NCBI GenBank assembly: GCA_022568135.1
Contig: JADFFQ010000001.1
Coordinates: 1-64,000 of the forward strand
Length of the DNA: 64,000 nucleotides
Reading direction: 5' to 3'
Origin: Planctomycetota bacterium
GTDB lineage: Bacteria > Planctomycetota > Phycisphaerae > Phycisphaerales > SM1A02
In this document: in pieces, positions 35,536 to 51,756 of the stretch
How positions within the stretch are numbered: the first letter of the stretch is position 1
Layout: every line of letters starts with the position of its first letter
Translations under genes and position numbers: made by a program
Notes under the pieces: model-generated
Database searches by the model: none
What the model was told of the DNA's origin: nothing
Seen by the model: only the letters and a program-made list of their open reading frames with translations

Positions 35536-35704
35536 TCCTGGATCTCCTTCCGTCGCCCTGCGCGGCGTGTGGTCCGCCCAGGGGGGTAAGGGGTCATGGG
35601 GGCATAGGGTGGGCCGAACATCAAGGCGATTGTGGGCGAATCCGGCGAGATCTGGCCAGAATCTGGCCATCCGGGCCTCAAATCGGCCAATTCGGCCAAC
35701 CTCG

Positions 35705-35879
35705 TATGGGTCCAATATTCAGCCCAACTGCAAATCGCACTGTGTCAAGAGCTTGGATTTGCTGGTGACGGGTCGTTTGTGGCCCGAAGCTGGCACGCAT
35801 TCGATGGGCTGAAGTTCGCCCCATCTTCAAGCTCTTGACACATCACGACTTCGGCTTGGGCCGATTTTTGGAGTCGTAC
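35705..35879. mobile_element. MITE-like element, copy 1
   Basis: Starts TATGGGTCCAATATTCAGCC and ends in the inverted, partly decayed GATTTTTGGAGTCGTA. The interior is ~85% identical to copy 2 (39981-40162). No ORF. Its termini match the integrase-type IS, so it is probably a non-autonomous derivative. Confidence 0.75.
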
Positions 35880-38037: not shown

Positions 38038-38238
38038 GTTGCCTCCTCGGCCGCCAACGAATATTCATTCGGCCTGCCTCATCATTGTGTATAGCAAAAA
38101 CTCAATCCGACGTGTTGACCAGCCCTCCGGCAAAGGACATTTGGATTCTCGAGGTCCCAATCGCGGCAGCTTGACGCTACCGGCAAAAACTCGCAAGTAA
38201 AAGTACACATTACACCAAAGACGACGAGTGAGACGGCG

Positions 38239-38262
38239 TATGGGTCCAATATTCAACCGCGT
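38239..38262 (+). mobile_element. IS-type terminus
   Basis: TATGGGTCCAATATTCAACC matches the left end of the MITE at 39981 over 17 of 18 bases, then diverges. It suggests a rearrangement at the 5' end of the following gene. Confidence 0.5.
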
Positions 38263-39625
38263 GCTTCGGGCAAACAGCCGTTGCAGCCAATATCTAGGTA
38301 GCGGGGGCGTCAAATTCTTGTGTCATGCAGCTGGCGCGATCACGCGAATCCTTCCTCACACGCAGGTATCTGCGTGGACCGAGGTGGCTTGGGAGCGTCC
38401 CTACGCCCGTTGGACGTCGAGCGACCGGCGCGGAATACGCGTCTCGATCCCAATCGGCGACCGGGAGGCCCGAGTCGCAAGGAGTGTGTCTTCGGAGGTT
38501 ACCAGACGCCGGGTACCCAGCGGCGTTGGGAGCATCGGGCGAACGTTAGACTTGCGCGAGCAAGATATTTGCCGTCGAGTGGCGGAACGCGTGTCAAGCG
38601 TGCTGGGCGGGACGAATGCGGCGCCCGCCTCCGTCTCTCTATCCGCGCTTCGCGCGGCCTTCGATGAGCAAGTTGTAGCCGCACACATCAAAGCGCACCA
38701 TGGTCTTGATATCAACATTGCTGATGTTCTTGGGTCGATCCACGAACTCGCCGAGCAAACCTACGAGAACAAATCGCTGGCGTTCGGTTGCTTAATTGAT
38801 CCCAATTGGGTAGTGGACGGGGAGGCTGTATTTCCAAGCACGATGTTGGAGTCCAAGAAGTATCGCGCTCTTTCCGACGGCTTCAAGACCGCATATCACG
38901 TAGCAACGGGCGGGCATCTCCTTGGCTTTGTTGACCTTGAGAACTTCGATCGTAGAAAGCTCGGCGCGAGACACTACTTCCCTGAGTGGTGCGAAGACAT
39001 CGCAAAGGCGAGTCGCGGTGGTCGTTGTGGCATCTCCTTGACTCGCAACGGCGAGATCCTCGTCTTTGACGAGGGAAGCCTCCGGTTTAGTTACCGCTTT
39101 GGTAGGTGGCAGTACTGGAATCATTCGCATCTCGTGGACTTGCTTCGGAATCTCACAAGGGTACAGAGGGTTCCGACTGAGCGCGTGAGCACAGTCGCTG
39201 CTGCAGTCTATCGTGTGGCTCTTGATGTCTCGTTCCGGCGCACGGGAGCGCTGTTCGTGATTCTCCGAAATGAGAGGAACCTCCGAAAGGTGGTGCGGCG
39301 CGGCGATGCCATCAACGACCGGAGGAGGGAAACGATCGACAAGCAGTTCGATGACGCCCTTCCAGCCGGCACGATCCAATCCTTGCCAAGAGGCGTAATC
39401 GCTGAGATTGCGGCCTTGGATGGAGCGATCGTGATGAACAATCGGGGCCAAATCTTGGCTTACGGAGCTGTTCTGAATCCGCAGAAAAAGGGGCGGATTT
39501 CGCGCGCTGAAGGCAGTCGAACTAAGGCAGCAATCGGGGCGTCACACTACGGCCTTGCGGTGAAAGTCAGCGCGGATGGAGACATTACGGTGTACCACCA
39601 AGGCAACAGGTTCATCTCCGTCTGA
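38240..39625 (+). CDS. DAC (diadenylate cyclase, DisA_N) domain protein with N-terminal sensor
   Basis: Up to 461 residues; the start is uncertain because the first ~95 codons lie next to an IS terminus and look less protein-like. The middle part (~125-320) resembles sensor regions paired with diadenylate cyclases (GISLTRNGEILVFDEGSLRF, then WNHSHLVDLLRNL). The C-terminal ~140 residues are a DAC domain: the DGA motif (AALDGAIVMNNRGQILAYGA) is intact, but the RHR motif reads GSRTKAA. The domain makes c-di-AMP from two ATP in known members. Altered RHR may change activity or nucleotide. Neighbouring nuclease-fold gene suggests a signalling-defence link, as inference. Confidence 0.72.
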   Translation: MGPIFNRVLRANSRCSQYLGSGGVKFLCHAAGAITRILPHTQVSAWTEVAWERPYARWTSSDRRGIRVSIPIGDREARVARSVSSEVTRRRVPSGVGSIGRTLDLREQDICRRVAERVSSVLGGTNAAPASVSLSALRAAFDEQVVAAHIKAHHGLDINIADVLGSIHELAEQTYENKSLAFGCLIDPNWVVDGEAVFPSTMLESKKYRALSDGFKTAYHVATGGHLLGFVDLENFDRRKLGARHYFPEWCEDIAKASRGGRCGISLTRNGEILVFDEGSLRFSYRFGRWQYWNHSHLVDLLRNLTRVQRVPTERVSTVAAAVYRVALDVSFRRTGALFVILRNERNLRKVVRRGDAINDRRRETIDKQFDDALPAGTIQSLPRGVIAEIAALDGAIVMNNRGQILAYGAVLNPQKKGRISRAEGSRTKAAIGASHYGLAVKVSADGDITVYHQGNRFISV

Positions 39626-39716: not shown

Positions 39717-39980
39717 TCACATCCCAAAGAGCTGCCTTGCGTACTTCTGATAGCGGGGATCGTCATGGATCATTGGGCGGGGGTTTCTGATGAGGGTCAC
39801 CTTCACTGGTTCGGATGGTCCCTGCCCGGCCGCGGAGACCGCCATTTCCAACGCATCCGGCCCGTCGTCGTGTGCGCCTAGCGGGAAATACCGCAGCTGA
39901 TCCACCAGCGTGTTGTGCCGGCGCGAGAGACGCAGCGTGCCCGAGCTGATCAGCGGTTGGAGGCTCTGAATGCGACCCCG
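39717..39980 (-). pseudogene. phage terminase large-subunit C-terminal remnant
   Basis: The minus frame contains GRIQSLQPLISSGTLRLS and GAHDDGPDALEMAVSAAG and ends KYARQLFGM. It aligns with GRIQALQP and AHDDGPDALEMAV of the intact terminase at 50125-51756, but is a different lineage. It is cut at 39980, exactly where the MITE starts, so insertion destroyed it. Confidence 0.8.
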
Positions 39981-40162
39981 TATGGGTCCAATATTCAGCC
40001 CAACTGCAAATCGCACTGTGCCAAGAGCTTGGATTTGCTGGCGACGGGTCGTTTGTGGCCCGAATCTGGCGCGCATGCGATGGGCTGCGGAGATGAGGTT
40101 CACACCGCCTTGAAGCTCCTGACGCATCACGACTTCGGCTTGGGCTGACTTTTGGACCCATA
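39981..40162. mobile_element. MITE-like element, copy 2
   Basis: TATGGGTCCAATATTCAGCC at the left and its inverted form (GACTTTTGGACCCATA) at the right give imperfect terminal repeats of ~45 bp. 182 bp, no gene. It interrupts the terminase remnant and abuts the IS at 40203. Confidence 0.85.
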
Positions 40163-40202: not shown

Positions 40203-41012
40203 TATGGTTCCAAAACTCAGGCGAGCTCTAAACGAGCACGTACCAGAGCGATGGCCGAAGAGAACAAGAGTTGGGGTTACCGACGGATCCAAGGCGCGCT
40301 GGCGAATCTCGGACATCGTGTGGGCCGAAGCACGGTGAGACGGATCCTCAGGGAGCACGGTATTGATCCTGCGCCGGAGCGTCGCAAGCGTCTTCCCTGG
40401 AAGACCTTCCTGCGCGCACATTGGGGAGCGATCGCGGCCGCCGACTTCTTCACCGTCGAGATCTGGACGCGGACCGGGCTCACGCGCTACTTCGTGTTCT
40501 TCGTGATGGATCTGGCAACACGGAAGATCGAAGTTGCGGGGATCACGGCCGCGCCGAACGGAGTCTGGATGACACAGATCGCCCGGAATCTGACGGATGT
40601 TGCCATCGGCTTCCTATCGGACCATCGATATCTGATCTGCGATCGCGATCCTTTATATACGCGGGAGTTCCGCGAAACGCTGCGAGCGGCGGGGGTCACG
40701 CCAGTCAGACTCGCGCCTCGAAGTCCGGACCTCAACGCCTACGCGGAGCGGTTCGTCCGATCCATCAAAGAGGAGTGCTTGGACAAGCTAATCGTCATCG
40801 GCGAGCGGCATCTGCGCATGGCGATCAGTGAGTACGTCGAGCATTATCACGCGGAGCGGAATCACCAGGGACTCGAGAACGCGCTCATCGCTCCGGCGTC
40901 GGAAGTGGGGGAGTTGTCCGGACCGGTGCTTCGGCGCGAACGGCTCGGCGGGATGCTGAATTACTACCACCGGAAAGCGGCATAATGTGTTGCGTTGAGT
41001 ATTGGACCCCTA
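40203..41012 (+). mobile_element. integrase-type insertion sequence, 5'-shortened
   Basis: Left end TATGGTTCCAAAACTCAG and right end GAGTATTGGACCCCTA form imperfect inverted repeats. The 810-bp unit holds one transposase gene lacking the N-terminal third found in relatives. Relics of the family are at 13797, 17926, 44115, 51905 and 63174. Confidence 0.75.
40251..40985 (+). CDS. integrase-core (DDE) transposase
   Basis: 244 residues from [17 protein letters not shown]; the frame stays open upstream into the MITE but that part is not conserved. DDE residues: Asp in [11 protein letters not shown], Asp in CDRDPLYT, Glu in [10 protein letters not shown], followed by [11 protein letters not shown]. 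The last residues are [10 protein letters not shown]. Relatives of ~350 residues carry an N-terminal HTH and coiled coil that are missing, so this copy may be inactive or need help in trans. Confidence 0.9.
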
Positions 41013-41814: not shown

Positions 41815-42870
41815 CTAGCCCTTCCCAAGTCGGTCAAGCATCCGCACCAGACGCTTGATCTCCTCTGGGTCGGTGATCTCGACATAGTACTTGGAGCACT
41901 CCCTCTTCTGACCAATCTCAGCCTGGATTAGTGTACCGTGCTGATACGATTCAAGAAGAATCCAGGTCACATCATCGCCCTCAACTGCCTTGCAGAAGTA
42001 CGAGAACACTAGCGAAGGACAGAAGTAGAATTTGCCCGGTTCTATGACCGTATCGAACCCATGCGGCACCCGACCCTTGGGTATCGTCTTCGTGGTTCCC
42101 TCGATCTCGTCTTTGAGCTGATACGACTGATAGACACCTGGGATATCCAGGAAGGGATGCGTAGCAGTTCTTGCTGATACCCAGCGGCACCTGAAAGACA
42201 GACTCTTGACACTCAACAGCTCGTCGCGGTCTGGCAACTCTATGGTCGACCCAGCTGGGAAGTTGCACGTCAGCGTCGTCTCCTCATCAGACAGCAACCC
42301 GATTCTGTGCTGAATGCCAGCGTTCACCACAGTCATCAGCGATTCACTCGTCTTCCCGTCGCTAGCCACACCCTTCCTCAACAGGTACGGGAGTTGCCCT
42401 TTGTCCTCCGGCAGACGTACTTCCGAGCCCTCTGGAGCTTCCACCCTGATGTCATATATGTTCACCGCCTGAATGAGCTGCTCACTGAGCAACTCCGGCG
42501 GAAGATCTTCTACCTCTTTGAGTGTCAGCAGCGTGACGGCGTGACGCCTGGCAACGTCACGACACCCGCTCTGGAAGCCACTGGATGACACCATGATCGC
42601 CTTGTTCGCGAGTACATCTGCAGCCTTCGTAACGAATGCCTCCACTTCATCGATGGATATTTTACGGCGCTCATCCTTGCACTCGATGACAGACAAGTAC
42701 TTGTGCAGCCCATACTCGAACCGAATCGTCACATCAAACTGGCGGCCGTTGATGAAGTCGTTCCAGGCGACCTGAGCACCCTCAGTCTCCGCATGGTGGA
42801 TTGCAGCAACGACTCTCTCAAAGCGACGCCATTTCCTGTCCTGACCAGCTGTCATGGTGCGGCTCTCCAC
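41815..42870 (-). CDS. Mrr-type restriction-endonuclease-like protein
   Basis: 351 residues (or 346 from MTAGQDRKW). The N-terminal ~125 residues are an Mrr_cat/PD-(D/E)xK domain: WRRFERVVAAIHH, Asp46 in RQFDVTIR, Glu63-Cys-Lys65 in SVIECKDE, then AIMVSSSGFQSGCRDVA. The C-terminal ~220 residues are unassigned and may recognise the target. Many such solitary nucleases cut methylated or foreign DNA. It lies 67 bp downstream of an XRE regulator gene on the same strand, so the two may be cotranscribed, next to a GIY-YIG-RAMA gene. Confidence 0.85.
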   Translation of the reverse strand: MESRTMTAGQDRKWRRFERVVAAIHHAETEGAQVAWNDFINGRQFDVTIRFEYGLHKYLSVIECKDERRKISIDEVEAFVTKAADVLANKAIMVSSSGFQSGCRDVARRHAVTLLTLKEVEDLPPELLSEQLIQAVNIYDIRVEAPEGSEVRLPEDKGQLPYLLRKGVASDGKTSESLMTVVNAGIQHRIGLLSDEETTLTCNFPAGSTIELPDRDELLSVKSLSFRCRWVSARTATHPFLDIPGVYQSYQLKDEIEGTTKTIPKGRVPHGFDTVIEPGKFYFCPSLVFSYFCKAVEGDDVTWILLESYQHGTLIQAEIGQKRECSKYYVEITDPEEIKRLVRMLDRLGKG

Positions 42871-42937: not shown

Positions 42938-43177
42938 CTACTTGCCAGCCACTCGCATGATTGCTTCCGATGGATCGAAGCCGCAAGCTTTGCACCAGCG
43001 GACCATTTCGACCGGATCGATCCGCCGGTTGCCCGTCTCCGTCTTGTATACGAACGAGTGGGGACGCTTCAGCTTGCGAGCCAGCTCTCGCTGGGTGAGA
43101 TCGGCCTGCAAACGCCACTCTCGTAGCAGCTTACACAGCCTCCGGTATGCGGGGTCATGCTGCGCCTTTGTGCCCAT
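42938..43177 (-). CDS. small XRE-family regulator (module A)
   Basis: 79 residues with one HTH: LTQRELARKLKRPHSFVYKT ETGNRRID. The size and layout recall controller (C) proteins of restriction systems. The upstream region (43180-43229) has nested inverted repeats overlapping its own promoter and that of the divergent GIY-YIG-RAMA gene. 50% similar to the module B regulator at 46062, sharing TQREL, RP.S.VY and ETGNRR. Confidence 0.88.
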   Translation of the reverse strand: MGTKAQHDPAYRRLCKLLREWRLQADLTQRELARKLKRPHSFVYKTETGNRRIDPVEMVRWCKACGFDPSEAIMRVAGK

Positions 43178-43179
43178 CC

Positions 43180-43229
43180 TGGGCGCACGCTAGACTGCCC
43201 GAAGGGTGCGCCCAGTTGGGGCGCAGTCT
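43180..43229. promoter_or_regulatory. inverted-repeat operator of module A
   Basis: TGGGCGCAC (43180-43188) and GTGCGCCCA (43206-43214) are perfect inverted repeats; TGCGCCCA and TGGGGCGCA overlap as a second palindrome (43207-43225); AGACTGC (43192-43198) and GCAGTCT (43223-43229) form a third. The cluster starts three bases before the XRE start codon and lies between the divergent genes. Confidence 0.65.
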
Positions 43230-43308: not shown

Positions 43309-44019
43309 GTGATCAAGGGTACCCACTTGGTTTGCCAGCATCTGGAGAACATCTCGGCGAAGGTGCTGGAGGACTACCAGGGGATCATTCGAGAATACAT
43401 CCGGCGCAGGCACGGCATCTATGCGCTGTACAAGAAGGACAGGCTGTACTACGTCGGCCTGGCGAGCAACCTTCGGGTGCGCCTGAAGCAGCATCTGAAG
43501 GATCGACACAAGGGCCTGTGGGATCGTTTCAGTGTGTACCTGGTCATCGACGACGGTCACATCAAGGAGCTCGAGTCACTTGTGCTGCGGATCGTCAGGC
43601 CGACGGGCAACCGCCTGATCGGGCGCTTCCAGCGATCGGAGAATCTGGGCAAGAGACTGACTCAGGATATCCGCAAACACCACCGCAAGGAGCTTCAGTT
43701 GCTCGTCGGTCGCAAGGCGAAGCCCAGCAGCCGCAAGAAACGCAAACGGCAACCCCAGCCATCGACCCAAGGTGGTCGATCAAAGGCGGTTCTGGCCACA
43801 TACATTGAGGGCCCACTGAAACTGCGCGCCAACCACAAGGGAAGGACGGTCCGAGCGACGGTGCACCGAGATGGATGGATCAGCTACGAGGGGGATCTGT
43901 ACAGGTCGCCATCAGCCGCGGCGCAGGCCGTCGTGGGACGAAGCTGCAACGGCTGGAGCTTCTGGTCGTACGAGATGGCGCCGGGTGGCTGGGCGCGCTT
44001 GCAGGAGTTGAGGCGATAG
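43309..44019 (+). CDS. GIY-YIG nuclease fused to a RAMA domain (module A)
   Basis: 236 residues from a GTG with GGAG eight bases upstream. The GIY-YIG domain: GIY (36-38), YVG (48-50), Arg56, Glu89 and Asn101 are all in place. A Lys/Arg-rich linker (~130-155) leads to a C-terminal RAMA domain (RANHKGRTVRATVHRDGWIS, then SCNGWSFWSYE). RAMA occurs with adenine methylases and restriction enzymes and is thought to read modified DNA. The protein could cut DNA according to its modification. Divergent from the XRE regulator with a shared operator. Confidence 0.88.
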   Translation: MIKGTHLVCQHLENISAKVLEDYQGIIREYIRRRHGIYALYKKDRLYYVGLASNLRVRLKQHLKDRHKGLWDRFSVYLVIDDGHIKELESLVLRIVRPTGNRLIGRFQRSENLGKRLTQDIRKHHRKELQLLVGRKAKPSSRKKRKRQPQPSTQGGRSKAVLATYIEGPLKLRANHKGRTVRATVHRDGWISYEGDLYRSPSAAAQAVVGRSCNGWSFWSYEMAPGGWARLQELRR

Positions 44020-44114
44020 ATCTGGACCGCCCGTTTGTGCCGACTCCCGATGCGCATCAGTGTGCTGGCCAACTCTCGCCAGCGACCTTGGGGGGCGTGC
44101 TCCCTCACGGCGTC

Positions 44115-44265
44115 CTCTTCCGGAGTCTGGATGACACAGATCGCCCGGAATCTGACGGGTGTGGCCATCGGCCTTCGATCGGACCATCGATACCTGATTT
44201 GCGATCGCGATCCTCTATATGCGCGTGAGTTCCGCGAAACGCTGCGAGCGGCGGGGGTGACCGTG
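44115..44265 (+). pseudogene. integrase-core transposase relic
   Basis: About 48 codons ([37 protein letters not shown]) ~90% identical to the IS at 40203. Both ends are lost. Confidence 0.8.
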
Positions 44266-44275
44266 GCACGCCGTC

Positions 44276-45094
44276 CTACGCAGCGAGGCTGTCGTTCACA
44301 GGCGGGTCATCCGAGATCGATAAGCCGTAGGAGCACCAGTGATGGAATGCCCCCTTGAGTTGGATATCAGTGTCCCGCAACCAACCACGGGCGAGCTTCT
44401 CTGGATCGGCCGGTATCTCAGCTCCAAGAGTGACAGACTTGACCATCCCTGCTTCCAGCTCCCTAGCGCCACGACCTTTCTCAACGTCAATCACCCTCCA
44501 TTCATTCTCGTATGCCCAGCACTCACTCTTGGTGAGTAGAGTAGCAATCCACTTTTCTTTGTCGGATGTGTCAAACCAGTTGAACTCCGCCATGTCTCTG
44601 CTGTAGTGCACTTTCCGTGTTCGTCGTCGCCACTCTCGATGACTCTCTAGATCGAACTCAATACAGATGCCACGGTGCCCATCTGCATAGTGCGACCACA
44701 TCAGATAGTTGTCGTTCGCAGTACCCAAGCACAGCATCGCGTGATCGGACCGGATCTTGTTCCGGATCGAGCGGCGCACGAGCACGTCCAATTCAGCATG
44801 GAGTCTCGGTTCATTCAACATCCCCGACACGTACGCATCCACTTCTGCGGCTTGACATCGAGGGCGTTCCTGCTCAACGATCTTGCGATAGAGCTCCCGA
44901 ATCTGGTAGAGCGTGCCGTCGAAAGAAACGTTGAAGTGAGACTCCTGAGGGTCGTTGAACTGATCGGGCGAGGAGAACCAGATCGATTCGCCCTGCACGA
45001 TCTGTCTGGTCCATTCGATCTGTTCATCATTCGCAAGCGGCACGTATTTGAAGAGTGGTGGAATCGCTCCAGCGGGTGGATCGTCGAACAGCAT
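44276..45094 (-). CDS. DUF2971 protein
   Basis: 272 residues from MLFDDPPAG, with GGAGGAG upstream. The family pattern LFKYVPL, SIWFSSPDQFNDPQES and MLCLGTANDNYLMWSHYADG is clear, with YENEWRVI near the end. DUF2971 proteins are of unknown biochemical role and are often found in phage-defence neighbourhoods. It stands alone between IS relics. Confidence 0.85.
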   Translation of the reverse strand: MLFDDPPAGAIPPLFKYVPLANDEQIEWTRQIVQGESIWFSSPDQFNDPQESHFNVSFDGTLYQIRELYRKIVEQERPRCQAAEVDAYVSGMLNEPRLHAELDVLVRRSIRNKIRSDHAMLCLGTANDNYLMWSHYADGHRGICIEFDLESHREWRRRTRKVHYSRDMAEFNWFDTSDKEKWIATLLTKSECWAYENEWRVIDVEKGRGARELEAGMVKSVTLGAEIPADPEKLARGWLRDTDIQLKGAFHHWCSYGLSISDDPPVNDSLAA

Positions 45095-45413
45095 GATCGC
45101 ACTCCTCCGAAAGGGTCGGCGTGATCTCCAGGCAGTTGGAGCCCCAACGGTTGCGGCTCCCCAACGTTCCATATCGACCTCACCAGCTCATCGCGCCACA
45201 TCCATTCTGGGGGGCAGGCGACGCTTCGACTGCGGCAGTCTACTCAATGCCACAACCAAATCCCAAGCTCTTGACGCATCACGGCTTTGGCTTGTGCTGA
45301 CTGTTGGACCCATTCGAGGTCGGACAGCCGTGGGCGAATCAAGCCGACAGCGAGTTAGCAACTTCCCGGCGGTGGCGCCGAATCCGAGGGATTAGACGCT
45401 GGGCTACTCTAGA
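45095..45413. other. 319-bp spacer with a MITE fragment
   Basis: 45262-45314 (AAGCTCTTGACGCATCACGG ... TTGGACCCATTCG) is the right end of the MITE family. The remainder shows no gene. Confidence 0.6.
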
Positions 45414-45899
45414 CTAATCGCTGGGTTTGAATAGCGCACCCGACTTCCACTGATGGAAGGTGTCTTCGTAGTCGGTGAGCCAGCTAACTTGTCGAGCCGT
45501 CACATCCCGGACAGCGATCGCGTTCATCGTGACCGACGAAACCACCCCACCGAAGAGGTTGGTGCCGGACACCGCGGGTCCGATCTTTCCCAGGACCCTT
45601 ACCTTGTGGTCCTTAACCACTGGGATCTTCGTATCGGGATAGACCACGATCAAAGACGGCCCTCCGAACTGAGTGGAGTCGTCGTAGGTGATCATCTGGA
45701 AGACGAGCTTGCCACCTTCTTCGGCGGCTTGGATGACGCGGCCCTGAAACGCGTACAACTTGTTCGTGTACCGCGCGGGATTCCGCTCGATTTGGTTGAG
45801 TGTTTCCACCGAGAATGTTCGGTAGCTAGCGCTCGCGGTGCAGCCACAGAGCGCGAGGCCGATGGCGAGGATCGGTGTATGTCGGATCAGCATTGGCAT
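45414..45899 (-). CDS. putative lipoprotein, 161 aa
   Basis: Starts MPMLIRHTPILAIG with AGGAGG six bases upstream. Signal with lipobox LALCGC (Cys19). The mature part (residues ~30-135) reads like an OB-fold lipoprotein: RYTNKLYAFQGRVIQAAEE, LIVVYPD, DHKVRVLGKIG. Slp or tRNA_anti-like folds share this pattern. Outer-membrane or periplasmic; function unknown. Confidence 0.7.
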   Translation of the reverse strand: MPMLIRHTPILAIGLALCGCTASASYRTFSVETLNQIERNPARYTNKLYAFQGRVIQAAEEGGKLVFQMITYDDSTQFGGPSLIVVYPDTKIPVVKDHKVRVLGKIGPAVSGTNLFGGVVSSVTMNAIAVRDVTARQVSWLTDYEDTFHQWKSGALFKPSD

Positions 45900-46013
45900 G
45901 GCAGCCTCCTTTTCAGCGTGGGGTGGAGCCCAGACGGAACGGTCAAACGTCCCCACGGGCTGACCGATTCAGGACCAGGGCTGGCCGGTGGGGCGGAACG
46001 CCGCTGCACTGTG

Positions 46014-46038
46014 CCTTGACACGCAACACGTGTCAAGG
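46014..46038. promoter_or_regulatory. perfect inverted-repeat operator of module B (XRE side)
   Basis: CCTTGACACG, a 5-base spacer and CGTGTCAAGG: a perfect 10+10 bp palindrome ending 23 bp before the XRE start codon. The TTGACA inside may also be its -35 box. The same half-site recurs at 47566-47589. Confidence 0.8.
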
Positions 46039-46061
46039 CAACATGCCGTCAAAGTACGGGC

Positions 46062-46307
46062 ATGCCGCGCAAGGCCCAGCATGCCCGCGACTATCGCTCC
46101 GTCCCGACCTTCCTCCGCGGATTGCGCGAGAAGGCCGGGCTGACCCAGCGCGAGCTTGGCCAGCGGCTGGGACGGCCCCAGTCATGGGTGTACAACTGCG
46201 AGACCGGCAACCGACGCGTGGACGTGGCGGAGTTCGCACGGTGGTGCGAGGCATGCGAGGCCACCCCGACGGCTGGTTTCGCGCGCTGGCTGAAGCACCG
46301 ACGGTGA
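46062..46307 (+). CDS. small XRE-family regulator (module B)
   Basis: 81 residues, HTH: LTQRELGQRLGRPQSWVYNC then ETGNRRVDVAE. Paralogous in design to the module A regulator at 42938. Autoregulation is likely given the palindrome just upstream. It converges on the HSDR_N-RAMA gene, whose promoter carries the same half-sites, so it probably controls both. Confidence 0.9.
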   Translation: MPRKAQHARDYRSVPTFLRGLREKAGLTQRELGQRLGRPQSWVYNCETGNRRVDVAEFARWCEACEATPTAGFARWLKHRR

Positions 46308-46425
46308 CGCCGCGATCCCAGCCCGTGGCCACGGCTTGACGACCGGGAGAGGCTCAGCGGTAGCGTTGGGGTTCGAGCCGGCGTCGACGGCCACCTCAGT
46401 TTGCGCGGAGCGGCCGGGCCGTCAC

Positions 46426-47520
46426 CTACCGGCCTTGCTGCTTACGGCGCTGGTGATACTCGTCCCTCGCATCGTCGAGGGATCGCTCATCGCCGCTTCT
46501 GCCGACAAACCGCCAGAACCGCCATCCATTGGTGCTGGCATGACGCCCGAGAATGACTGATCGGGCTTCGGCAGCCGCTGTCGACGGACTGTCGTACTGC
46601 GTCCCCTTGAACTCGATCGTGCCATCCGGGTGCAGGGCCGCTTCGAGGCGCCGACCCTTGTACTCGCGGAAGAGTGGAAGCGGAGCAGGCAAGATGCCGG
46701 CTTTGATGAGTTGAAGCAGCGTTACCGCCGGCTGTGCCCGCGTGCCTGGGCGTTGCTTTGTGGATTCTCGCCGCTGCGTGCGGTGTTCAGGTGCGGTTGA
46801 CGTGATTTCCCCCATCGTCGCCAGCGCGTTGTCGTTGAGGAGGTGGTGAACGGCGTCGATGACATCGTCGATGGAGACCGGCACGCCCGTGCTCCGACGC
46901 AGTTGGCGCCAGAGCGCCTTCATTGATGACTCGCTGAAGATCGCCTGGAGTACGGTGCCGCTGTCGAGCACCTCGCGTTTCTGCCACAGCTTGTCCAGCA
47001 CACCCTTCTTGACGCTGCGGTAGGAGATGAGCTCGAACCGTTTGGCGAGCATCTCGACATCGTCCTCAAGGAGATCCCATTCGAAGAGCCGCTTGGTCAC
47101 CGGCGGTTGGCCGAACGCAACGTGGTAGAGGCGCCATTGGCGGCCGTTGGTGAGGATGATCCACTCGCAGCCGGTGTTGATGGCGTAGGAGGAGACCTGC
47201 TTGAGGTGCTTGCGGGCCAGGTCGGTTCCGACCCGCTTGAGCTCCACGAGGATGGTGGGGCGGCTGTGCTCCTGGGCATCAATCCGGATCGCGAAGTCGA
47301 CGTGTTCGGTCTCGCCCGCCCCTCGGATCGCATGTTCACGTGTGAGGTGCTCGAAGGGGTGGTAGCCCAGGACGCTCTCGAAGATGCGTTCCACGCGGCG
47401 GCGGGTCTCCGCTTCGTTACCATCCATCTTCGCCAGCCGCTGGATCACGCCGCGGGCCTCGATCACGGCGCGTTGGCGATCCTGCTCTCGGCTCGAAGCG
47501 TTCGATCTCTTCTTGGCCAT
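46426..47520 (-). CDS. type I restriction N-terminal-like nuclease fused to a RAMA domain (module B)
   Basis: 364 residues. Residues ~25-170 match the HsdR N-terminal PD-(D/E)xK domain: Asp75 in EHVDFAIRI, Glu93 and Lys95 in ILVELKRVG, then CEWIILTNGRQWRLYHVAFG. A helical section (~170-250) and linker lead to RAMA (~295-350: REYKGRRLEAALHPDGTIEF, then STNGWRFWRF). There is no helicase, so it is not a full HsdR. It may bind or cut DNA by modification state, as inferred for the GIY-YIG-RAMA protein. Upstream operator matches that of the XRE gene. Confidence 0.85.
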   Translation of the reverse strand: MAKKRSNASSREQDRQRAVIEARGVIQRLAKMDGNEAETRRRVERIFESVLGYHPFEHLTREHAIRGAGETEHVDFAIRIDAQEHSRPTILVELKRVGTDLARKHLKQVSSYAINTGCEWIILTNGRQWRLYHVAFGQPPVTKRLFEWDLLEDDVEMLAKRFELISYRSVKKGVLDKLWQKREVLDSGTVLQAIFSESSMKALWRQLRRSTGVPVSIDDVIDAVHHLLNDNALATMGEITSTAPEHRTQRRESTKQRPGTRAQPAVTLLQLIKAGILPAPLPLFREYKGRRLEAALHPDGTIEFKGTQYDSPSTAAAEARSVILGRHASTNGWRFWRFVGRSGDERSLDDARDEYHQRRKQQGR

Positions 47521-47565
47521 GGGACATCCCCTTGCCAGAGGTGCGGCAGAGACTGTCCAGTCTCG

Positions 47566-47589
47566 CCCGACACGGAAGTCGTGTCAAGA
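47566..47589. promoter_or_regulatory. second operator of module B (nuclease side)
   Basis: CCCGACACG, 5-base spacer (GAAGT), CGTGTCAAGA. The half-site and spacer equal those of 46014-46038; it lies ~46 bp upstream of the HSDR_N-RAMA start. A lone half-site CTTGACACG is at 47768. Confidence 0.7.
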
Positions 47590-47811
47590 CGTAGGGGCCG
47601 AACTCATGGCGTAGTGCAGGGAATGCGAGCTAAAGCCCACCGCCGGGTTCGCGAACTGATCAAGGGCGTTGATGAGCGCAAAGTTATCGCGTCCGCATGA
47701 TACCGAGCGCCGTTTCAGCGGGCTGGGGCCGCTTCCTCGTGCAGCGCTAGAGCTGGCGAAGGTCTTGCTTGACACGATCCGCGCCGCAGGATAGGGTGAT
47801 GAGCATCAACA

Positions 47812-47885: not shown

Positions 47886-48087
47886 ATGACCCGCCACGAA
47901 AACCAGTTCCCCCATCAGCGTGCTCCACCTCACCGGTGTACGTGATCGCTGTGATCGAGTGATCTGCGAGGGGCGTGATGCGCCCGGGACGATTGGTGTG
48001 ATCCGATCCCCGGTCGACACAACGCACGGTCACGGAATCGAGTCTGGTTTCTGCATCTTAAGGGCGGCGGGGCATGGAGGTCTTGTA

Positions 48088-49425
48088 ATGGACATCCGGA
48101 CGATCAGTCTTGATCAGATCGAGGTCGCCGACTACAACCCGCGCCTGGATCTACAGCCGGGGGATCCCGAATACACCAAGCTCAAGCGCAGCCTCGACGA
48201 GTTCGGCTGTGTGGAGCTGCTGGTGTGGAACCGCCGCACTGGCCATCTTGTCGGGGGCCACCAGCGCTTGAAGGTGCTCATCGAGCAGGGCGTGACGGAG
48301 GTCGAGGTCAGCGTCGTCGATCTCCCCCTCGAGCGAGAAAAGATCCTCAACGTCGGGCTCAACAAGATCGGCGGTGACTGGGACCCCCGGAAACTTCCGC
48401 AGCTGTTGGATGAGCTTGTTCAAATTCCGGGGTTGGACGTCGAGCTCAGCGGCTTCGATCTTCCGGACATCAATGCGTTGATCGCTGACTCGCTGACGCC
48501 ATTTGATGGCGACGGGGAGGATGACTTTGACGTCGAGGCACAGCTCGCAGCCAATCGGCCGTTGATAACACGGCCTGGCGATCTCATCGAGCTGCGAAGA
48601 ATCGACGCCGATCCGCGCTTCCAAGGTCATCGCCTGCTCTGCGGCGACTGCACCGATTTTGCTCAGGTGCGGCGGGTGATGCAGGACGAGCGCGCGATTC
48701 TGTTTTGCACCGATCCTCCTTATTTGGTGAACTACGATGGCATGAATCACCCAGCCTCGAAACACTTTCGGAGGCGCGGTCGGGACAAGAACAAGAACTG
48801 GTCCAAGAGCTACGGCATCACGTGGGACGATGCGAGCGCCAATCCCGACCTATATGCAAAGTTCATCCGCGCCGCCGTGGACGAGGCGATCCTTCCCAAC
48901 GCGGCGTGGTACTGTTGGCACGCCAGCCGACGACAGGGCATGCTGGAATCGGTGTGGGAGAAGTTCGGCGCCTTCGTTCACCAGCAGATCGTCTGGGTCA
49001 AGGATCGACCCATTCTCACTCGTTCCTGGTATGGCTGGCAGCACGAGCCGTGCTTCTTCGGCTGGGTGAGACCCAACAAACCGCCTCGTCGCGCTGAGGA
49101 CTATCCATCCTCTATATGGCACATCCCGACCGTGGCGATTGGCCAGAAAACCGAACATCCCACCTCGAAGCCGTTGGAGGTTTTCAAGATACCGATGCGC
49201 CAGCACACGCGCGCCGGTGAACTTTGCTACGAACCATTTGCCGGCAGCGGCTCTCAGATCATCGCCGCCGAGCAGCTGGGACGGCGATGCAACGCCATTG
49301 AGATCAGCCCGCGCTATTGCGATTTGGTCGTAAGAAGGTTCATCAGCTTTGTAGGCGCGGGTGCCGTATCACCGGAGCTCGCGAAGCGCTACGGCGTCTG
49401 GGATGACCAGGAGGTCGCGACATGA
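48088..49425 (+). CDS. ParB-N-domain DNA methyltransferase, phage type
   Basis: 445 residues, ATG with GGAGG eight bases upstream. Residues 1-120 are a ParB/sulfiredoxin-like domain (YNPRLD, VGGHQRLKVL). A long linker precedes an N6-adenine/N4-cytosine methylase of the beta type: catalytic CTDPPYLVNYDG (~210) before the SAM motif YEPFAGSGSQI (~390). This ParB-methylase fusion is common in prophages next to terminases. ATGA overlap couples it to the next gene. Confidence 0.92.
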   Translation: MDIRTISLDQIEVADYNPRLDLQPGDPEYTKLKRSLDEFGCVELLVWNRRTGHLVGGHQRLKVLIEQGVTEVEVSVVDLPLEREKILNVGLNKIGGDWDPRKLPQLLDELVQIPGLDVELSGFDLPDINALIADSLTPFDGDGEDDFDVEAQLAANRPLITRPGDLIELRRIDADPRFQGHRLLCGDCTDFAQVRRVMQDERAILFCTDPPYLVNYDGMNHPASKHFRRRGRDKNKNWSKSYGITWDDASANPDLYAKFIRAAVDEAILPNAAWYCWHASRRQGMLESVWEKFGAFVHQQIVWVKDRPILTRSWYGWQHEPCFFGWVRPNKPPRRAEDYPSSIWHIPTVAIGQKTEHPTSKPLEVFKIPMRQHTRAGELCYEPFAGSGSQIIAAEQLGRRCNAIEISPRYCDLVVRRFISFVGAGAVSPELAKRYGVWDDQEVAT

Positions 49426-50141
49426 GCCAACGAACGCTGAATGAATCCTCCATCGGCAGCAGCCCTCCGACGACCGGAGAAGTGTCGCAACGATCTGTCG
49501 TTGACCTTCTCCAGGGTCTGCGACAAGGAACCATCACCGGAGCAACCCTGTCCTCCCACGACCGGCGCGCCTGCGTGGCGTACCTGATGGCCGAGGGCTA
49601 CAGCGTCGCAGAGAGCGCGAAGATCTGTCAGACATGCGACCGAACCATCACGCGGGACCGCGCCAAGATTCGCCAAGAGAATGCGATCCAGCGCGATCCG
49701 TCGTTCGAGCCGCAAATGGTCGGGGGTCTGGTTCATGATGCCGAGGTCGCGATCGGTCGGCTGCGGCGGATTGCGAGGGACAAGACCGTCAGCGCCGCGG
49801 TCAGGGTTGAAGCGGAAAAACAGGCGTGGATCATCCGCTGTGATCTGATCAAGATCCTGCAGAGCCTCGGCCATCTGCCCATCGCCACCCAGCACCTCCG
49901 GGCCGACCTGACCCACCACGTCGGCGAGCTGCCCGACCTCCAGACCATTGAACTCGAGATTCGCGAATTGATCCAGGTCGAGCAGGACTTCGGTGGCGCC
50001 GATGACGGCCTCCAAGCAAAGATGCACCGGCTCGAGGCGACCACCAAGCTCCTCGGCGTGGCCGAAGAAGCTCAAGAAGCCCAAGAAGCCCAACAGACGC
50101 TCGACCAAGATAAGGATTCACGAGATGATCAAGAGACTTGA
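49422..50141 (+). CDS. terminase small-subunit-like protein
   Basis: 239 residues. An HTH-like segment (YLMAEGYSVAESAKICQTCD then RTITRDRAKI) is followed by a long helical, acidic region, as in small terminases that recognise DNA and regulate packaging. Assignment rests mainly on position between methylase and large terminase. Overlaps the methylase stop (ATGA) and the terminase start by 17 bp. Confidence 0.65.
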   Translation: MSQRTLNESSIGSSPPTTGEVSQRSVVDLLQGLRQGTITGATLSSHDRRACVAYLMAEGYSVAESAKICQTCDRTITRDRAKIRQENAIQRDPSFEPQMVGGLVHDAEVAIGRLRRIARDKTVSAAVRVEAEKQAWIIRCDLIKILQSLGHLPIATQHLRADLTHHVGELPDLQTIELEIRELIQVEQDFGGADDGLQAKMHRLEATTKLLGVAEEAQEAQEAQQTLDQDKDSRDDQET

Positions 50142-51756
50142 CTACCGAGCCGCCCTGCAAGCAGAACTGATCGAGACTCGGCGCAGCATTTGCCGCCCTT
50201 CGTTGTTGGCCTTCGCCAACACGTACCTCAAGGGGCACTTCCGGCTGAAGCCTTCGCCGATGCATGCCGAGCTGGCAGCGCAGCTGGAAACCGTGACGCT
50301 CACGGCGAGGGGAGCACGAATCGCCACCGCCGCACCACGCGGTCACGCCAAGACCACCCTTGTCGGCCTTGCCTTTCCATTGTGGTGCAGCGCCTTCGAG
50401 CACGAGGCCGTGATCTACCTCATCTCCGACACAATCGACCAGGCTGCGGGGCACCTCGGCAACATCAAGGCCGAGCTCGCATCCAATGAATTGCTGCGCT
50501 GCGACTTCCCCGATCTGTGCGAACCACTTGGCGGAAAGCCGCGGTCGAAGCGGTGGCAGCGCTCGGAGATTGTTACGCGCAACGGCATCAAGATCGTCGC
50601 CTTGGGAGCGCAGTCCAAGATCCGAGGTCGCAAACACGGCTCTGAGCGACCATCGCTCATCATCAATGACGATCTGGAGAACGATGAGGGGGCCGACTCG
50701 CCGGAGCGCTGCGAGAAACTGCTTAATTGGCTCAATCAGGTCGTGCTCAACGCCGGCACCCGGCGGACCAACGTGGTCGTCACTGGGACGATTCTGAGCT
50801 ACGGTGCAGTCCTGGAGACGCTGATGAAGTCGCCCGGCTGGTCCTCTAAGAAATACCGGGCGGTCGAGTCCTGGAGCGATGCCCTCAAACCGTGGGAGCG
50901 ATGGAACAACATCTACAACGGCGATGAGGAATTCGAATGCCAGACCGGGCCAGAGGCAGCGCGGGCTTTCCTGGCGGCCAACGAATCTGTGATGCTGAAA
51001 GGGACGCGAGTGCTGTGGCCGGAATTGGAGAGTTACCAGGACCTCATGACCGCTCGATTGATCCAGGGTGAGTACAGTTTCGACGCCGAGAAGCAGAACG
51101 AACCCGCAAATCCGAGGAACACGATCTTCAAGCCCGAAGACTTCAGGTATTGGGACGAGCAGTACGAAAGTGAAGAGGCGCTGATCGCGGCAGTGGGGGA
51201 ACGGGGCATCTTTATCGGTGCACTCGACCCCAGCCTCGGAAAGCCCGGCCGCAACCGCGACTTTACCGCGATCATCACTCTTCTGGTTGATCCGAAGAAT
51301 GGGATCAAATACGTTCTGGACGCCGATATCACCAAACGGCAGAACGACGAGATCATCCGTGCGGTGATTGACCACCACAGACGTCGAGGGTACCAGGCCT
51401 TCGCGGCCGAGACGGTTCAGTTCCAGGAGTACCTTGCCGACCAACTGATCAAGCAAAGCCGGCTGGCGGGCTTTCCTGTACCTGTGAAACCGACGAAACC
51501 GCACAGCGATAAGTTCGGGCGTATCCAGGCACTTCAGCCGGCCGTTCACAATGGTGAGATCCGTTTCAGCAAGCAGCACTGGTCGTTGCTTCAGCAGATG
51601 AAGCAGTTCCCGAAAGCCGCGCACGACGACGGTCCGGATGCCTTGGAGATGGCCGTCAAGCTCGCCCGGGGCCGGCGACGTCGGCGCCTCCGCTTTGGCC
51701 ATCTACAGCCCATCGCACCCGGTTCGGTCTCGTCGATCTTGGTGATGCACGATTGA
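50125..51756 (+). CDS. phage terminase large subunit
   Basis: 543 residues starting MIKRLDYRAAL, with AAGGA upstream. ATPase Walker A is APRGHAKTTLVG; Walker B is LIINDDLEND; the nuclease domain begins FIGALDPSLGK and ends with HDDGPDALEMAV. It packages DNA into phage heads in intact phages. No portal, protease or capsid gene follows; the sequence breaks into IS relics after 51780, so this is a prophage fragment or a reduced packaging module. Confidence 0.93.
   Translation: MIKRLDYRAALQAELIETRRSICRPSLLAFANTYLKGHFRLKPSPMHAELAAQLETVTLTARGARIATAAPRGHAKTTLVGLAFPLWCSAFEHEAVIYLISDTIDQAAGHLGNIKAELASNELLRCDFPDLCEPLGGKPRSKRWQRSEIVTRNGIKIVALGAQSKIRGRKHGSERPSLIINDDLENDEGADSPERCEKLLNWLNQVVLNAGTRRTNVVVTGTILSYGAVLETLMKSPGWSSKKYRAVESWSDALKPWERWNNIYNGDEEFECQTGPEAARAFLAANESVMLKGTRVLWPELESYQDLMTARLIQGEYSFDAEKQNEPANPRNTIFKPEDFRYWDEQYESEEALIAAVGERGIFIGALDPSLGKPGRNRDFTAIITLLVDPKNGIKYVLDADITKRQNDEIIRAVIDHHRRRGYQAFAAETVQFQEYLADQLIKQSRLAGFPVPVKPTKPHSDKFGRIQALQPAVHNGEIRFSKQHWSLLQQMKQFPKAAHDDGPDALEMAVKLARGRRRRRLRFGHLQPIAPGSVSSILVMHD

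Follow-up and report, generated by a model that had tools for sequence, protein, structure and literature searches.

A C-protein-like XRE regulator and a methyltransferase-less HsdR_N-RAMA nuclease with matching putative operators in a Planctomycetota genome

Gene content and conservation of module B

The analysed stretch of 64,000 nucleotides (the window) belongs to a genome of 3.35 Mb and contains two modules of regulator and nuclease genes, A and B, about 2 kb apart. Module B comprises XRE-B, an 81-aa C-protein-like helix-turn-helix regulator (46062-46307, + strand; Pfam HTH_31, 8.7e-15) with the recognition helix PQSWVYNCETG, and a gene for a 364-aa HsdR_N-RAMA nuclease (46426-47520, - strand; Pfam HSDR_N_2, 5.7e-11, and RAMA, 5.4e-21), and these coordinates and Pfam domains bear out the convergent pair described in the initial annotation. 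Being convergent, the two genes are not co-transcribed, do not form one operon and have separate upstream sites. The nuclease contains an HSDR_N_2 domain at residues 36-134 (47119-47415, - strand, by Pfam) and a RAMA domain at residues 249-360 (46441-46776, - strand, by Pfam and Foldseek). A small lipoprotein-like open reading frame (45414-45899, - strand), for which a Pfam search gave no match, is divergent from XRE-B.

Module B represents a discrete block (45264-47635), which is found at two places in a sister species (G394) with 92–93% identity and unrelated flanks, one of the two copies being cut by a contig end. The lipoprotein-like gene is kept with the block in both copies, so that operator 1, described below, lies between two divergent genes. 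The genes of the conserved block are those for the lipoprotein, XRE and nuclease only, and no cognate methyltransferase was found in it; a type II pairing of the nuclease with the methyltransferase downstream was rejected because that methyltransferase lies outside the block.

The surrounding DNA holds debris of mobile elements. A MITE-like repeat of about 185 bp with imperfect inverted ends of about 50 bp occurs at 35698-35872 and 39975-40162, with a remnant at 45265-45313, and several copies are present in the genome and also in the sister species; in the window, and likewise in both sister-species copies, its right end directly adjoins the left edge of module B, which hints at how the block moved. 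A transposase gene fragment (40543-40699) is repeated at 44105-44261 with 89% identity, IS debris lies between the defence-like cassettes, and a 465-aa protein with a C-terminal DAC (diadenylate cyclase) domain (38228-39625, + strand) is encoded a few kb before the module region. Genes for a ParB-type DNA methyltransferase, an HTH protein and terminase-like proteins follow module B at 47920-51756 (+ strand), and would fit a module that is prophage or mobile-element cargo, serving a phage or satellite (for example in superinfection exclusion) with the same local circuit. ParB-type methyltransferases were also seen near XREs or RAMA nucleases at other loci (L162, L169, L183, L085, L093, L115; 0/38 controls), and GIY-YIG-RAMA genes lie near terminase-like genes in two viral contigs. 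Against this cargo reading, module B of the sister species adjoins neither a methyltransferase nor a terminase, and the debris of IS and MITE elements points to an eroded mobile region rather than a whole prophage. Such a role is regarded as possible but doubtful, and it is compatible with the explanation preferred below.

Residues E36, D75, E93-x-K95 and Q108-x3-Y112 of the module B nuclease are invariant in 14 homologues, and the predicted active site is intact, with the residues expected of an HsdR-type PD-(D/E)XK enzyme. An AlphaFold2 model of the nuclease built with three sequences was poor (pLDDT 54.8), and a Foldseek search with this low-confidence model supported only the RAMA part, with the RAMA domain of MPND (7ydt/7ydw) as the best match; a profile search of the nuclease against PDB sequences gave no match. 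The nuclease domain nests among RAMA-less homologues in the tree, which would fit two separate origins of the HsdR-RAMA fusion, but an AU test did not reject a single clade (p 0.22). The RAMA domain is often called a 6mA reader. The RAMA domain of MPND bound DNA regardless of 6mA (PMC9963953), and the role of RAMA in the module B nuclease may be general DNA binding.

Two putative operators and the helix code of the XRE-family operator

The perfect palindrome annotated before the regulator gene was recovered as operator 1, CCTTGACACG-CAACA-CGTGTCAAGG (46014-46038; core TGACACG-CAACA-CGTGTCA at 46017-46035), which ends 23 bp upstream of the XRE-B start codon and contains TTGACA on both strands. 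Operator 2 (47565-47589; core 47568-47586), 45-69 bp upstream of the nuclease start codon, is an imperfect copy that carries TTGACA on the nuclease strand. The same half-site and 5-bp spacer had been proposed here, and this held for the spacer and for the inner GACACG/CGTGTC, which is perfect, but not for the full arms, in which 16/20 bases match (13/14 in the core with 7-bp arms). A promoter scan of the stretch called no strong sigma-70 promoter, so the overlap with the -35 region is based on the TTGACA within the operators. The motif GACACGN5CGTGTC has exactly two sites in the 3.35-Mb genome, namely operators 1 and 2, whereas shuffling gave 0.30 expected matches in the window even with one mismatch allowed, and both operators were among the top matches in 1.5 Mb of related loci. 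The sequence TTGACACG at 47767 was considered as a third operator and rejected, as it has no dyad.

Where both sites are visible in the sister species, the operator arms are identical and the nuclease-side spacer changes from ACTTC to GTTTC. A member of the same family (G368), with an XRE 72% identical to XRE-B and no nuclease adjoining it, has the operator TGATACG-CAAAT-CGTGTCA, kept amid otherwise diverged upstream DNA. The claim that one motif serves both genes is thus supported by a unique pair of sites kept in the sister species, and also by an operator class that XREs sharing this recognition helix retain throughout the class. Operator 2 could instead be non-functional, a relic or a -35 element with chance symmetry, with XRE-B regulating only itself; for most members of the family the XRE gene itself is the only one with an operator, and TTGACACG recurs at 47767 without a dyad. 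This is considered quite unlikely, since the sister species retains both half-sites and their 5-bp distance despite changes in spacer and flanks, and the site is one of just two in 3.35 Mb.

The XRE family was detected in 44/392 Planctomycetota genomes surveyed (E below 1e-12) and in 88/367 genomes of the class. Perfect 7+5+7 dyads, selected by symmetry alone, were present in 16 of 54 upstream regions of the family as against 0.75 in shuffles, and many of them start 45-48 bp upstream of the start codon. Differential pairing was observed between helix residues and operator bases: residue 46 goes with the inner triplet (Lys with CCC, Asn with ACG, Arg mostly with CGC), and residue 45 with the outer end (Ser with AT; His, Tyr or Ala with TG). 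Residue 46 predicts the inner triplet with a permutation p of 5e-5, a value not corrected for shared XRE ancestry, and in loci from fresh genomes Asn46 was mostly accompanied by ACG or ACT, Lys46 by CC and Arg46 by GCT. Of the 27 Asn46-type loci scanned, the window among them, only one lacks a site of 12/14 or better; the sites are nearly always directly before the XRE, and control DNA gave 1 such site in 380 kb. The palindrome is accordingly classed as the predicted, autoregulatory operator of a widespread family of C-protein-like XREs; its 7-bp arms flank a 5-bp spacer, and it lies about 45 bp upstream of the start codon. In several Arg46 XREs with the helix HNTMVHRSE (among L226-L239), TGCTGCT-N5-AGCAGCA stands at -48 and again over the start codon, and it hardly varies over many genera. 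To judge from the papers searched, this operator code of the XREs is new, which a broader search might change.

Module A and the occurrence of XRE and nuclease-RAMA pairs

In module A, XRE-A (42938-43177, - strand; 79 aa, sharing about 50% identity with XRE-B) is preceded by the putative operator TGCGCCC-N5-GGGCGCA (43207-43225), a second putative operator lies over its start codon (43169-43187), and a GIY-YIG-RAMA nuclease gene (43309-44019, + strand) is divergent from it. The two modules had been described as having the same design; they agree in the kinds of part, but the layout of module A is divergent, not convergent, and its operator is a different one. As the operators differ, the modules should not cross-regulate, and the operator code suggests insulation of two modules lying 2 kb apart. 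The divergent layout of module A is repeated at L107. An Mrr_cat restriction endonuclease gene (41815-42870, - strand) is located directly downstream of XRE-A on the same strand, and a DUF2971 protein (44276-45172, - strand; PADLOC PDC-S31 match, 2.9e-49) is encoded between the two modules.

An exchangeable-effector system of XRE and nuclease-RAMA genes, previously unrecorded, had been suggested from the two modules, and in its general form this was not sustained. RAMA-nuclease genes were mostly without an XRE partner: judged in flanks of up to about 5 kb and for XREs of this profile, 16 of 18 loci outside the genus had none, and the remaining 2/18 compare with 0/18 control stretches. An XRE accompanied one of 12 GIY-YIG-RAMA loci elsewhere (L107), one of six HsdR-RAMA loci elsewhere (L114) and one of 15 RAMA-less HsdR loci (L123), counts that are lower bounds because some contigs are short and the profile may miss remote XREs. 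The GIY-YIG-RAMA genes near terminase-like ORFs in the two IMG/VR viral contigs (L223, L224) are without XRE. Conversely, the neighbours of most XREs of the family, as read partly by eye, are unrelated genes and not nucleases; the neighbours seen include membrane proteins and lipoproteins, transposases and integrases, HNH nucleases (L158, L090), and methyltransferases of the D12 (L187) and ParB (L162, L169, L183) types. As for the system being unrecorded, fusions of RAMA to different nuclease domains have already been noted (PMC11037411). A GIY-YIG-RAMA gene beside an Asn46-type XRE at L258 was considered as an effector swap and rejected; the two are separated by about 1.6 kb that includes other genes, and there is no second operator. 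A weaker version of the pairing idea is kept alive by L114 and L107.

None of the 24 other Asn46-type loci has a second operator at a nuclease promoter, that of module B being 1.5 kb away, and among Asn46-type loci only the window and the sister species have another strong site at a distance from the XRE, which lies before the nuclease; L257 has one further 12/14 match, of a strength at chance level. Second sites in other members of the XRE family are mostly beside the first site or over the start codon. The confinement of the second operator to this genus among Asn46-type loci indicates that the nuclease link is young, the link itself being seen in two closely related genomes. L114, which comes from a different family of the phylum, has an XRE from a separate lineage about 900 bp from an HsdR-RAMA gene, with an outer-membrane-protein (OMP) gene between them, and all three TCCCN6GGGA sites in 9.8 kb precede either the XRE/OMP pair or the HsdR-RAMA gene, a placement seen in 0/200 shuffles. 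Judged by its sequence, L114 is a putative independent parallel of the XRE, HsdR-RAMA and shared-operator design, with an unrelated DNA word. A tentative generalisation is a plug-in control cassette, in which C-protein-like XRE autorepressors with private, helix-coded operators might capture cargo, in these cases methyltransferase-less HsdR-RAMA nucleases, by its gain of an operator copy, independently in module B and L114.

Proposed control of the nuclease by XRE-B

The family profile of XRE-B matches C.BclI (1.7e-10) and C.AhdI (3.9e-8) over most of its length, and XRE-B is therefore best seen as a C-protein-like autoregulator; its match to the PADLOC Control_protein model is weak (0.0045). 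C proteins, which are already known (PMC12707154), resemble XRE-B in being XRE/HTH proteins of about 80 aa with dyad operators at their own promoters and a link to nucleases. The XRE-B family differs from them in its 7-bp arms and 5-bp spacer and in that most members have no restriction endonuclease neighbour, and module B, unlike type II C-protein systems, has no cognate methyltransferase and carries its nuclease on a separate, convergent transcript. XRE-B shows weak similarity to HipB-type models, and some XRE proteins are antitoxins, which would fit a toxin-antitoxin-like pair in which XRE-B binds and neutralises the nuclease protein; the convergent genes with separate promoters and no operon, the 81-aa length that is almost all HTH with no obvious toxin-binding tail, and the usual occurrence of the family without nucleases make this highly improbable.

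Module B is probably a mobile, methyltransferase-less restriction-like nuclease under a C-protein-like XRE autorepressor, and XRE-B probably holds the nuclease in check, much like the controller proteins of restriction systems. The TTGACA inside both operators suggests, as we infer, that a bound protein blocks RNA polymerase. A dimer of XRE-B on TGACACG-N5-CGTGTCA, spanning the -35 region of the XRE-B promoter, would limit its own level, the perfect site there making the loop self-limiting, and from operator 1 it would probably also control the divergent lipoprotein-like gene, while on the imperfect operator 2 it would hold down the convergent nuclease gene. While XRE-B is scarce, either through a drop in its level or because it has yet to accumulate, as on entry into a new cell or under stress, the nuclease would be released and would use its RAMA domain to engage foreign DNA, perhaps modified, which it may then cleave in a putative defence role.

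The nearest characterised relatives of XRE-B by sequence, C.BclI and C.AhdI, also bring in the opposite direction of control, since C proteins activate at a low level and repress at a high level (PMC12707154). XRE-B would then switch the nuclease promoter on while accumulating and repress itself at a high level, so that nuclease expression is timed on entry into a new cell. Activation is held to be unlikely: in type II systems pairs of C-boxes precede a C gene joined to the restriction endonuclease gene, with a methyltransferase protecting the host, whereas module B has one dyad per promoter, separate transcripts and no methyltransferase in the conserved block, and the TTGACA within the dyad favours blocking of RNA polymerase.

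The preferred repressor arrangement has a likeness in BrxR, which represses a defence island via one good and one imperfect inverted-repeat box (PMC9122601). In BrxR/CapW-type control, as proposed for module B, both boxes govern defence genes (PMC9122601); BrxR is a winged-helix WYL protein, whereas XRE-B is a bare HTH without a ligand domain. Type IV fusions such as GIY-YIG-RAMA and RAMA-Mrr-NTPase likewise pair a nuclease with a presumed reader of modified DNA, one reader being combined with several nuclease folds, and the available portion of PMC11037411 describes these without naming HsdR_N joined to RAMA; module B differs from them in having a dedicated transcription regulator. Several models of PADLOC PDC-S14 match the GIY-YIG-RAMA protein of module A, and one matches the RAMA part of module B; module B differs in its HsdR_N nuclease, and PDC-S14 carries no regulator according to the PADLOC models. 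The linkage of a C-protein-like XRE to a methyltransferase-less HsdR-RAMA nuclease via a shared operator appears new within the literature searched, although a broader search might change that. Module B would provide a testable case in which a restriction-like nuclease that has no partner methyltransferase is held by a dedicated C-protein-like repressor, and the operator code, which pairs residue 46 with the inner triplet and residue 45 with the outer pair, would allow binding sites to be predicted purely from protein sequence across a large XRE family in Planctomycetota.
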